From Cytobacillus massiliigabonensis (GTDB lineage Bacteria > Bacillota > Bacilli > Bacillales > Cytobacillaceae): 64,000 nucleotides of DNA. The position numbers and the translations under genes are program-made. The notes under the pieces were generated by a model that was given only the letters and a program-made list of their open reading frames with translations, ran no database searches and was not told the origin of the DNA. The stretch spans positions 2,518,074 through 2,582,073 of the forward strand of contig NZ_LT904904.1 in the NCBI RefSeq assembly GCF_900199725.1, in the 5' to 3' direction. This document shows, one piece after another, positions 38,504-40,632 of this stretch; position 1 is the first letter of the stretch, and the number at the start of each line of letters is the position of its first letter.

Positions 38504-38533
38504 TTCATAAGGATGAGATTTTTTCCTTATGAA
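38504..38533 (+). promoter_or_regulatory. Inverted repeat upstream of the crcB pair
   Basis: TTCATAAGGA and TCCTTATGAA form a perfect 10-base inverted repeat around a 10-base T-rich loop, 43 bases before the first crcB start. It could be an operator or an RNA hairpin. The fluoride riboswitch consensus is not seen. Confidence 0.45.
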
Positions 38534-38576
38534 TGGTATGATAGGATTGATGAACATGGAAAGCAGGGAGAGAAGC

Positions 38577-38957
38577 ATGATTTATGTTTTTATTGGAATT
38601 GGCGGAATTGCTGGCAGTTTGCTTCGCTATTTTGTTTCTATTTGGACTGATCATTTATGGGCACATGCCTTTCCATATGGAACTCTTATCGCAAATTTAA
38701 CTGGATCCTTTCTCCTTGGCATTTTCACAAGGAAATACGGTAATAACGAGAAGGTAAATCGCATGCTTGTTCTGTTAATCGGTACCGGTGCAATTGGTTC
38801 TTATACGACAATGTCTACCTTTAGCACGGATATGATCAAGCTCATTGATAAAGGGGATTTTGGTATCGCACTACTATACATCTTGCTTAGTTTAACTGGC
38901 GGACTGGCAGCATCCTGGTTTGGCTATTTCTATCCATTCAGAAAAGTGAGGACATAA
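38577..38957 (+). CDS. crcB: Fluoride channel CrcB/Fluc, subunit 1
   Basis: A 126-aa four-helix membrane protein of the Fluc fluoride-exporter family. It has GGIAGSLLRYFVS, the pore asparagine in GTLIANLTGSFLLG, and the central phenylalanine/threonine block TTMSTFSTD. Proteins of this type form dual-topology dimers. The start is ATG 38577 after AGGGAG, with several in-frame upstream starts (38529, 38553) less likely. The second crcB follows two bases later. Confidence 0.9.
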   Translation: MIYVFIGIGGIAGSLLRYFVSIWTDHLWAHAFPYGTLIANLTGSFLLGIFTRKYGNNEKVNRMLVLLIGTGAIGSYTTMSTFSTDMIKLIDKGDFGIALLYILLSLTGGLAASWFGYFYPFRKVRT

Positions 38958-38959
38958 AA

Positions 38960-39331
38960 TTGGTTTTTCATATATGTTTGGTAGGAATTGGCGGTTTTTT
39001 TGGGGCAATTTGCCGGTACCTTGCAACTTCATACTTCCAAAGAAAATTCCCAAGCAAGATTCCATTAGGTACAATAGCTGTTAATTTGATGGGCTCCTTT
39101 TTATTAGGCTATCTATTGGGAATAGCAGAAGATGATGAGTTGACCTTATTTCTTGGAACAGGTTTTATGGGAGCATTTACTACGTTCTCAACCTTTAATT
39201 TAGAAGCAATAAAACTGATCGAAAGTAAAGAAAAAATAGCAGGAATATTTTATATTGCGATCACCTATGCAGGCGGAATTATACTTGCTTTCCTGGGGAT
39301 GCTTGCCGGAAAAATTGGAAAAGGAGCATAG
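38960..39331 (+). CDS. crcB: Fluoride channel CrcB/Fluc, subunit 2
   Basis: A 123-aa CrcB with GGFFGAICRYLAT, GTIAVNLMGSFLLG and TTFSTFNLEA. It begins at TTG 38960, two bases after the first crcB stop, with GTGAGG upstream. The tandem arrangement, as in B. subtilis, points to a heterodimeric channel of oppositely oriented subunits; that is known for paired crcB genes and inferred here. A terminator shared with the convergent yidC follows. Confidence 0.9.
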   Translation: MVFHICLVGIGGFFGAICRYLATSYFQRKFPSKIPLGTIAVNLMGSFLLGYLLGIAEDDELTLFLGTGFMGAFTTFSTFNLEAIKLIESKEKIAGIFYIAITYAGGIILAFLGMLAGKIGKGA

Positions 39332-39357
39332 CATTTTGGCTATACTCCTTCTTTTTG
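39320..39357. terminator. Terminator between crcB and yidC
   Basis: AAGGAGCATAGC pairs with GCTATACTCCTT with one mismatch, then CTTTTTG. It lies between convergent stop codons. Confidence 0.8.
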
Positions 39358-40143
39358 TTAGTTTGAGCTTACTTCTGTACCTTTTGATTTCTCGGATGGG
39401 TACAGCCTTCGACCAATCATTGTTTGCACAGTTAAGAAAATACCGCCAACTGTCCAATAAAGCGGCAATGCCGCTGGTGCATTTAGCGAAATTAAGACAA
39501 TCATTATAGGGGAGAGAAGACCCATAAACTTCATTTGCTGCTGTGTTTGAGCAGGCATATTCGCCTGTGAAACCTTGAACTGCAAATAATAAACAATCCC
39601 AGCAACTGCTGTAATCCATATATCTGAATGCCCGAGATTAAACCATAAAAACGAATGGGCAGCAATTTCCTCGGAACCTCTAATCGCATAATAAAATCCC
39701 ATTAATATTGGCATTTGAATAAGAATTGGAAGACATCCCATATTAAGCGGATTGACATTATGCTTCTTATAAAGAGCAAACATTTCCTGCTGAAGCTTTT
39801 GCTGTTCTTTTTGATCCTTTGCAGCTTTTAACTTCTTTTGGATGCTATCCATTTCAGGCTTAAGGACATCCATTTTCTCTTTCATTATTTGTTGTTTTTT
39901 ATATTGCTTTAACATTAAAGGCATTAACAACAGTCGAATGGCAAGAGTAATCACAATAATTGCAATGCCATAATTATCATGAAAGAGAACTGCCACTCCG
40001 TGTATTAAAGAGGCAAATGGTTCGACAGCGAATTTTTGAAAGAAGCCATCGCTATTTTGTGTATTGGGTGATCCACAAGCTGATAAAAGCATAGTTCCTG
40101 CTGCGAGCATGAATAATAAATAAAAGTATTTCAGTTTTTTCAT
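39358..40143 (-). CDS. YidC/Oxa1 family membrane protein insertase (YidC2/YqjG type)
   Basis: A 261-aa membrane insertase with a lipoprotein signal (lipobox LLSAC, about residue 23) and five further membrane helices. The hydrophilic-groove arginine lies in IRLLLMPLML, followed by a cytoplasmic coiled coil (KMDVLKPEMDSIQKKLKAAK) and the NPLNMGCLPILIQMPI and ALPLYWTVGG helices. It is the second, regulated insertase type by context: a MifM-like gene lies 28 bases upstream, and its Shine-Dalgarno AAGAGGAGTG is locked in a hairpin with the end of that gene. Expression is expected to rise when the main YidC fails. Confidence 0.93.
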   Translation of the reverse strand: MKKLKYFYLLFMLAAGTMLLSACGSPNTQNSDGFFQKFAVEPFASLIHGVAVLFHDNYGIAIIVITLAIRLLLMPLMLKQYKKQQIMKEKMDVLKPEMDSIQKKLKAAKDQKEQQKLQQEMFALYKKHNVNPLNMGCLPILIQMPILMGFYYAIRGSEEIAAHSFLWFNLGHSDIWITAVAGIVYYLQFKVSQANMPAQTQQQMKFMGLLSPIMIVLISLNAPAALPLYWTVGGIFLTVQTMIGRRLYPSEKSKGTEVSSN

Positions 40144-40149
40144 ATTGTC

Positions 40150-40192
40150 ACTCCTCTTAATAGTAAATAAATTATTTTACAATTAGAGGAGT
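40150..40192 (-). promoter_or_regulatory. Hairpin hiding the yidC Shine-Dalgarno, left arm inside the leader ORF
   Basis: Read on the minus strand, ACTCCTCT (40192-40185, codons T91-L93 of the leader peptide) pairs perfectly with AGAGGAGT (40157-40150), which is the yidC ribosome binding site. The loop is 27 bases and holds the leader stop codon. A ribosome halted near the end of the leader ORF would open it. Confidence 0.75.
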
Positions 40193-40462
40193 AGCACCTT
40201 CAGGATCATCACTAGGACCTTGTTTTTTGCGAATGCATTTAATCATCCAAACTAATAATGGATTTCTATATTTATAATAAAATAACTGCTGAATCGAAAA
40301 TTTATTCGATGATTCAATTGTTCTAGCAGTATCTAAAGAGTTATAAAAATGATATTCAATATTCCAAACCCAAATAAACTTAACAATCATGCCCAAGAGG
40401 AAGCTTGCATAAATTGTATACTCGGTGGGAATATTCGAGATATCGATAATAAATTCAGTCAT
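40172..40462 (-). CDS. MifM-like nascent-chain sensor / leader peptide upstream of yidC
   Basis: A 96-aa protein with one N-terminal membrane helix (about 15-34, YTIYASFLLGMIVKFIWVW), a cytoplasmic middle, and a C-terminal segment with W72, basic residues 75-80 and an acidic patch (PSDDPEGA, 83-90). The ATG at 40462 follows GAGGTG. In B. subtilis MifM has this layout (one helix, then an arrest segment with Trp and a DEED-like patch) and stalls its ribosome to expose the yqjG start site. The position, length, topology and hairpin all match, while the arrest sequence itself is clearly divergent. Arrest here is inference. Confidence 0.75.
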   Translation of the reverse strand: MTEFIIDISNIPTEYTIYASFLLGMIVKFIWVWNIEYHFYNSLDTARTIESSNKFSIQQLFYYKYRNPLLVWMIKCIRKKQGPSDDPEGATPLIVK

Positions 40463-40632
40463 ATTTTCACCTCATAACTTAAGGCCAATGGATAAATTAT
40501 AGAGTAAATGTTTGATTTAAGCAATGAAGAACATATTCAAATACAATTGAAACATAAGCTTTCCTGTTGAACCCAAGGGAATAGAGTAATAGAATAGTAG
40601 ATAGACTGACTAATTTAGAACGGTGGGGTATT

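Follow-up and report, generated by a model that had tools for sequence, protein, structure and literature searches.

The question raised by this locus is how translation of a second yidC gene is controlled, and whether the short open reading frame directly 5' of it encodes an arrest peptide of the kind known from MifM (YqzJ) of Bacillus subtilis. The window, by which we mean the whole 64,000-nucleotide stretch of DNA analysed here, comes from a Cytobacillus-like bacterium. The leader is very probably the MifM orthologue of this bacterium, a monitoring substrate for YidC that carries a variant arrest motif. The features on which the argument draws are the following:

40496..40524, minus strand: promoter-like TTGCTT (40519-40524), 17 nt, and TATAAT (40496-40501), read by eye
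40468..40473, minus strand: Shine-Dalgarno (SD) of the leader, GAGGTG, 5 nt 5' of the ATG, from sequence reading
40172..40462, minus strand: MifM-type leader ORF, 96 aa plus stop, from the ORF call, homologues, and a dN/dS of 0.22 against C. praedii
40358..40414, minus strand: single hydrophobic, presumed membrane segment, residues 17-35, from hydropathy only
40199..40249, minus strand: putative arrest segment W72-E88 (WMIKCIRKKQGPSDDPE), which matches MifM W73-D89 ungapped in the alignment
40199..40210, minus strand: acidic patch D85-D86-P87-E88, aligned at the place of MifM DEED 86-89
40185..40192, minus strand: anti-SD ACTCCTCT within codons 91-93, from the pairing analysis
40149..40193, minus strand: presumed repressive hairpin from the leader end to the yidC2 ribosome-binding site, predicted fold
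40151..40156, minus strand: yidC2 SD GAGGAG, paired inside the hairpin in the predicted fold
39358..40143, minus strand: yidC2 (YqjG type), 261 aa, the presumed regulated gene (Pfam 60KD_IMP, 2.4e-44; tree)
39319..39352, minus strand: intrinsic-terminator-like hairpin 3' of yidC2, from a terminator scan

The initial annotation had described a 96-codon frame with one N-terminal helix, a tryptophan at residue 72, and a basic and then acidic C-terminal part, and both the ORF call and the hydropathy profile agree with that description. The extent it had assigned, 40143-40462, holds at the upper end and fails at the other: the leader proper spans 40172-40462, and positions 40144-40171 form a spacer outside the ORF that holds the 3' arm of the hairpin. 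Leader and yidC2 are co-oriented on the minus strand with a gap of 28 nt between them, which is the placement of a MifM-type leader. By hydropathy, 61 residues lie C-terminal of the hydrophobic stretch 17-35, where PMC10987492 asks for a soluble part of at least 30, and the 15 residues preceding this stretch carry a net charge of -3. W72 is followed by K75, R78, K79, and K80 and then by D85-D86-P87-E88. Within residues 70-100, a 5-residue window nets -3, that is -0.6 by a simple charge count in place of the published R package, which lies below the -0.3 that PMC10987492 sets for such windows. Between the window and Cytobacillus praedii, the nearest named relative found (YidC2 93% identical), the leader shows dN 0.072 and dS 0.330, hence a dN/dS of 0.22 in the true frame, and dN/dS exceeds 1 in both shifted frames; the leader frame is under coding constraint. 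Pfam and NCBIfam models gave no match to the window leader, and a PDB sequence search returned nothing usable (top match E 0.24). The promoter candidate upstream of the leader is weak, since a promoter scan at the locus did not report the TTGCTT/TATAAT pair and TTGCTT agrees with TTGACA at 3/6 positions.

The downstream gene had been taken for a yidC of the YidC2/YqjG type, and a 12-sequence tree supports this assignment: the window YidC2 groups with the MifM-associated YidC2 of a B. subtilis-like genome, which has a long branch, and apart from YidC1, at 100/100. The window's own genome (G000, 5.23 Mb) contains two yidC genes. The other copy is flanked by frames that we take to be rnpA, jag, and mnmE, and because of these neighbors it is presumably SpoIIIJ/YidC1. 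The terminator scan after yidC2 found one hairpin against a shuffle mean of 1.0, so this feature is weak alone. Two tandem crcB-family genes (fluoride channel type; window 38529-39331) run tail to tail towards yidC2.

Conservation in related genera, above all of W72 and the acidic patch, had been proposed as the check on this locus, and the leader stands up to it. A leader lies directly 5' of yidC2 in 79/80 named loci (the best 80 of the 114 matched by the window YidC2), of which 78 were found by script and one, L112, by eye, and the acidic patch stands in the same register; an equivalent of W72 is not universal. L112 enters no scripted analysis, L038 was dropped from the junction collection, and the same assembly may appear both under a G handle and under a name. 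Across the family, the window leader protein was matched in 143/193 genomes, namely in 0/14 of those with one YidC match, some of which are incomplete, versus 143/179 of those with more. The other 36 of these 179 genomes gave no match to the window leader protein, and divergence may explain part of them, since the leaders of named Peribacillus, read directly, keep the acidic patch and the basic region and are very different elsewhere. At one locus, that of Heyndrickxia sporothermodurans DSM 10599 (L101), yidC2 stands without a leader, and another strain of the species (L103) has one. In L146 (G053:C1), the leader is frameshifted after ~50 codons with the arrest segment intact in another frame, the result of either an assembly error or a recent loss.

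In B. subtilis MifM, R69, I70, W73, I74, M80, N81, and DEED at 86-89 are important for stalling, which takes place when D89, A90, G91, and S92 occupy the P site; uL4 R66 is contacted by R79 and N81, A751 by the backbone close to R79, and uL22 F85 by I74 (PMC4423224). In the ungapped register, W73 corresponds to W72 of the window leader, R79 to R78, and the patch at 86-89 to DDPE at 85-88. As the initial annotation had noted, the arrest residues differ from the MifM pattern: R69-I70 are replaced by P68-L69, I74 by M73, and M80-N81 by K79-K80, and in the patch D86 is kept, E87 becomes D, E88 becomes P, and D89 becomes E. The full B. subtilis residue set, which is the motif of one protein and no published criterion for the family, is thus absent from the window leader. 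The proposal that the arrest peptide has diverged holds at the sequence level, where the MifM register is ungapped and M80-N81 and R69-I70 are substituted, and the putative ribosome contacts would differ from those of MifM. Given that R78 keeps the place of R79 and that N81, I74, and DEED have given way to K, M, and DDPE, a stall is expected around codons 88-91. Because only some of the B. subtilis arrest residues survive, the leader is placed in the MifM kind as a member whose motif is variant, and not as one that stalls like MifM in detail.

Searches place this similarity close to what can be detected. A profile-profile comparison (hhalign) of 30 family leaders with 9 B. subtilis-group leaders aligned 25 columns, all within the arrest segment, at E 1.5e-4 and a probability of 52%, and BLASTP of the window leader against a B. 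subtilis-type leader gave a marginal E of 0.006. The 30-row family profile did not find the B. subtilis-group leaders in a class-wide search, which matched 8/398 genomes; two of its matches, L039 and L040, were dropped because no yidC adjoins them. A search with a B. subtilis MifM sequence did not find the window leader, and 9 of the 19 genomes matched by that query had weak hits only (E 0.004-0.009), which were unused. Homology of the window leader to B. subtilis MifM may thus be regarded as moderately supported by these comparisons, and not overwhelmingly so.

The variation that the arrest region admits was tallied, in MifM numbering, over 79 leaders (68 distinct) anchored by script with a pattern that demanded R or K at 79; 13 leaders that the script left unplaced were anchored by hand for the stem, stall-model, and helix-distance analyses. 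Among the 68, position 73 is W in 44, R in 9, and Q in 9, position 78 is I, V, L, or F in 66, and at position 79, where the anchor required R or K, 58 leaders have R and 10 have K. R or K stands at position 80 in 48 and at position 81 in 61, both positions being basic in 46 leaders, one in 17, and neither in 5. Acidic D or E occupies position 86 in 57, 87 in 57, 88 in 37, and 89 in 49, with P at 88 in 11. All 13 hand-anchored leaders have W at 73, and their position 79 is L in 7, R in 3, G in 2, and C in 1; the seven L79 leaders are those of the C. firmus/oceanisediminis group and L052, with K-K next. R at 79 is invariant in the 30-row family alignment only, and because L, G, or C stands there in 10/13 hand-anchored leaders, R79 must be called usual and not invariant. 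M-N at 80-81 occurs in 4/68 distinct anchored leaders, all B. subtilis-like (it was seen only in L122-L126), and M-K in leaders L127-L131. These M80-K81 leaders and L035 (WISKVIRRKVCPNDDGEE) look intermediate towards B. subtilis MifM in sequence. The spacing of the leader varies little: in the window, 53 residues separate the hydrophobic stretch from the predicted arrest site, equal to the median of 92 leaders, and the 5th-95th percentile of the helix-to-patch distance in those 92 is 51-62 residues. For MifM, a median helix-to-arrest distance of 54 is given in PMC10987492.

Codons 91-93 had been said to pair over 8 perfect bases with the yidC SD, and this pairing is found. The codons ACT CCT CTA give ACUCCUCU, which forms 8 Watson-Crick pairs with AGAGGAGU, a stretch that includes the yidC2 SD. 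The 8-pair stem sits in a longer predicted hairpin, whose 12+5 pairs are interrupted by a single mismatch and a single bulged base. The predicted folding energy of segment 40145-40195 is -16.5 kcal/mol, whereas dinucleotide shuffles average -5.1 (z -4.95), and 0/200 of them were as stable as the native sequence. Counted from the first base of E88, the predicted P-site codon, the 5' arm sets in 8 nt downstream. A hairpin that sequesters the yidC2 SD beside the arrest codons, as in MifM, is therefore predicted here, and with the leader directly 5' of an orthologous yidC2 and an arrest segment in MifM register, it makes up the MifM-yqjG-like architecture that the initial annotation had recognised.

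The same arrangement recurs among relatives. A contiguous stem onto the SD was found in 86/92 leader-yidC2 junctions, with at least 6 pairs in 78 of those 86, and no such stem in the other 6. Measured from the first base of the codon equivalent to D89, the 5' arm has its start 2-17 nt downstream in 81 of the 86 loci; the outliers are L044 (21 nt), L063 (20), L067 (39), L080 (91), and L105 (-20). All three reading phases are represented among the arms (0 in 23 loci, 1 in 18, and 2 in 45), which implies that no protein motif dictates where the arm lies; the distance of the arm is steadier from the D89 codon than from the stop codon (sd 3.7 vs 5.2 nt, 82 loci). When the last 14 codons of the leader were recoded synonymously and SD pairing was rescored, native pairing exceeded that of the recodings by a mean z of +1.43 over 87 distinct loci, which are related and not independent, with p <0.05 in just 26 of them (0.045 in the window and a non-significant 0.12 in its nearest relative, L042). 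Swapping tails between loci lowered the mean stem score from 7.47 to 6.16, and the best of 2000 permutations reached 6.63. As the loci are related, the recoding and swap figures describe a tendency and are not independent tests. Four loci (L067, L080, L037, and L105) were left out of the recoding, swap, and stalled-ribosome work. In the stall model, which puts the ribosome edge 15 nt past the start of the P-site codon, mean SD accessibility rises from 0.09 to 0.33 over 88 loci; the change exceeds 0.2 upward in 47 loci and downward in 1, and for the window the modelled rise goes only from 0.00 to 0.29.

These observations suggest the following course of events. When SpoIIIJ/YidC1 activity is low, the leader helix would stay uninserted and the nascent leader chain would stall its ribosome around codons 88-91. 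The stalled ribosome would then cover the anti-SD at codons 91-93 and free the yidC2 SD, as the modelled opening has it, so that yidC2 could be translated. If YidC inserts the helix, the resulting pull would release the stall and the hairpin would re-form. The proline in the acidic patch could alter the number of stall sites, although this is a guess.

The ribosome of the host adds a further consideration. M90 of uL22 is important for stalling by B. subtilis MifM, and R, Q, K, or H at this place is not expected to support it efficiently (PMC4423224). B. subtilis has M90, and uL22 of the window's genome (L041:1489-1830, G000:C7) has Q90 in place of the methionine or other hydrophobic residue associated with efficient MifM stalling. 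Residue 90 is Q in 9 and M in 20 of 29 genomes (G000 and the 28 matched of 30 asked), and among named genomes (48 matched of 50 asked) it is Q in 8, all of which have a leader, and M in 40. On Q90 ribosomes, variant leaders would either tolerate Q90 or stall less. The leader position preceding W73 (B. subtilis T72) is V, I, or C in 6 Q90 genomes, which hinted at coevolution with uL22 residue 90; this idea was rejected when H turned up alongside Q90 in L043, L051, L057, and L076. A tie between the basic pair at 80-81 and Q90 was likewise rejected, as the pair also occurs with M90 (e.g., G029 and G057).

The window's own leader starts with ATG. Elsewhere in its genus the start place is less conventional: in 17 leader regions it reads ATC in 12, ATT in 1, and ordinary ATG in 2, and in L136 and L146 an ATG lies two codons 5' of the same ATC. 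The ATC cases, with ATC behind GAGGTGA and no standard start, belong to the C. firmus/oceanisediminis clade (L134, L135, L137, L141-L145, and L147-L150), and the ATT case, also behind GAGGTGA with no standard start there, is L140/L052. These ATC and ATT triplets lie 7 nt after GAGGTG, and a TGA within the SD closes the frame. The ATC set within L134-L150 consists partly of the same assemblies as L054-L056, L061, L062, and L094; an ORF search with ATG, GTG, and TTG found no leader in L055, L056, L061, L062, and L094, and in L052 and L054 only leader forms beginning within or after the helix. ATC TTT GA is invariant in the clade leaders and the two codons before ATC vary. Their dN/dS is ~0.27 (the median of 74 usable of 78 pairs among 13 sequences, a set that includes L136 and leaves out L140 and L146). 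In L134-L150, pS is 0.06 in leader codons 2-15 versus 0.30-0.34 later, and this low synonymous change makes a nucleotide- or RNA-level constraint near the start possible. In Pseudoneobacillus rhizosphaerae (L060), the leader may start at ATA (GAGGTGAGACCT ATA TTT GAA), unless translation begins at a GTG within the SD. Of 92 leaders, a rough count by script gave 64 with a recognised SD, of which 43 start with ATG, 11 with TTG, 2 with GTG, 6 with ATC, 1 with ATT, and 1 with ATA. On this pattern, the leaders of the C. firmus clade seem to start at AUC. If so, near-cognate starts would imply low leader translation and, in one clade, a further layer of control, and surveys based on annotation could miss such leaders.

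Could yidC2 be controlled without translation arrest? A small membrane protein might couple its own translation to that of yidC2, the passage of the ribosome opening the hairpin with neither arrest nor sensing of YidC. The hairpin and the coding constraint would be needed there too, and the absence of several MifM contact residues sits well with it. Coupling of this kind, however, has no need for a conserved acidic patch whose register with W73 and basic 79-81 is constant, for an anti-SD steadier from the patch than from the stop codon, or for a helix-to-patch distance as narrow as 51-62 residues, and we consider it unlikely. A fortuitous ORF or a decaying remnant, with a hairpin that sets only basal yidC2 translation, would be in keeping with the frameshifted leader of L146 and the lack of a leader at L101, but a dN/dS of 0.22 in the true frame against values >1 in the shifted frames and the retention of the leader in 79/80 named loci (best 80 of 114) leave this explanation with next to no credibility.

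Another proposal is that a YidC-monitoring arrest leader arose independently and converged on the MifM layout, as put forward for CliM (PMC13183943). The overall similarity to B. subtilis MifM, near the detection limit, lends this some color. Yet the leader occupies the same place before an orthologous YidC2 in the same ungapped register, the significant profile match is confined to the arrest region, and leaders L035 and L127-L131 look intermediate, all of which makes convergence a distinctly improbable history, more so than simple coupling. We retain the reading that the leader is orthologous to MifM and that its arrest motif is a variant one. A wider claim can be built on it tentatively, and we think it possible rather than probable as a whole: that the B. 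subtilis mechanism is lineage-specific, that the wider Bacillaceae would usually make contact through basic residues at 79 and at both 80 and 81 together with a D-D-x-D/E acidic patch, that arrest would work on uL22 Q90 ribosomes expected not to support MifM, and that leaders of the C. firmus/oceanisediminis clade would start at near-cognate AUC (AUU, and perhaps AUA, elsewhere).

What is known of the MifM mechanism comes from a single species. With a large natural collection of leaders that share one register but differ at the contact positions defined by mutation, some of them on Q90 ribosomes, the distinction between essential and replaceable contacts becomes directly testable. A 2024 catalogue drawn from 592 Firmicutes genomes holds 572 non-redundant MifM sequences, chosen because they cluster with B. 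subtilis MifM, satisfy a rule on the acidic patch, and carry a localization signal (PMC10987492). A search of the open literature returned no paper pairing MifM with Cytobacillus and, judged by the title or abstract start of the matches listed, none on MifM start codons.

Among known systems, the window leader is closest to MifM, the yidC2/yqjG regulator of B. subtilis, with which it shares a length of 95-96 aa, an N-terminal hydrophobic segment, a place before yidC2, the equivalents of W73, R79, and acidic 86, 87, and 89 in the same register, a predicted hairpin that covers the yidC2 SD and places the anti-SD directly past the arrest codons, and a similar span between helix end and arrest site (53 residues, and 59 in the B. 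subtilis-like L122). It differs in P68-L69, M73, K79-K80, and DDPE, and in the Q90 of its uL22 as against M90. MifM and CliM are named as the two arrest peptides shown to sense YidC (PMC13183943). CliM of Clostridia, first called uC_KYxIW, is likewise an arrest leader that monitors YidC, and an mRNA structure that goes with it represses the yidC gene that follows (PMC13183943); the KYxIW string, which represents the CliM motif here through that name alone, is absent from the window leader by eye. ApcA of Actinobacteria is also an arrest peptide encoded before a secondary yidC (PMC7897499), but it belongs to another phylum, has an R-A-P-G arrest end (PMC10987492), and had no hairpin over the SD predicted for it (PMC7897499). 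SecM and VemP follow the same monitoring-substrate logic, in which arrest opens an mRNA structure over the SD of the next gene (PMC10987492), and differ in that they monitor Sec export with other arrest sequences and other target genes. MifM-type leaders are a kind already known, and the window leader is on the best reading an added member of that kind with a variant arrest motif.
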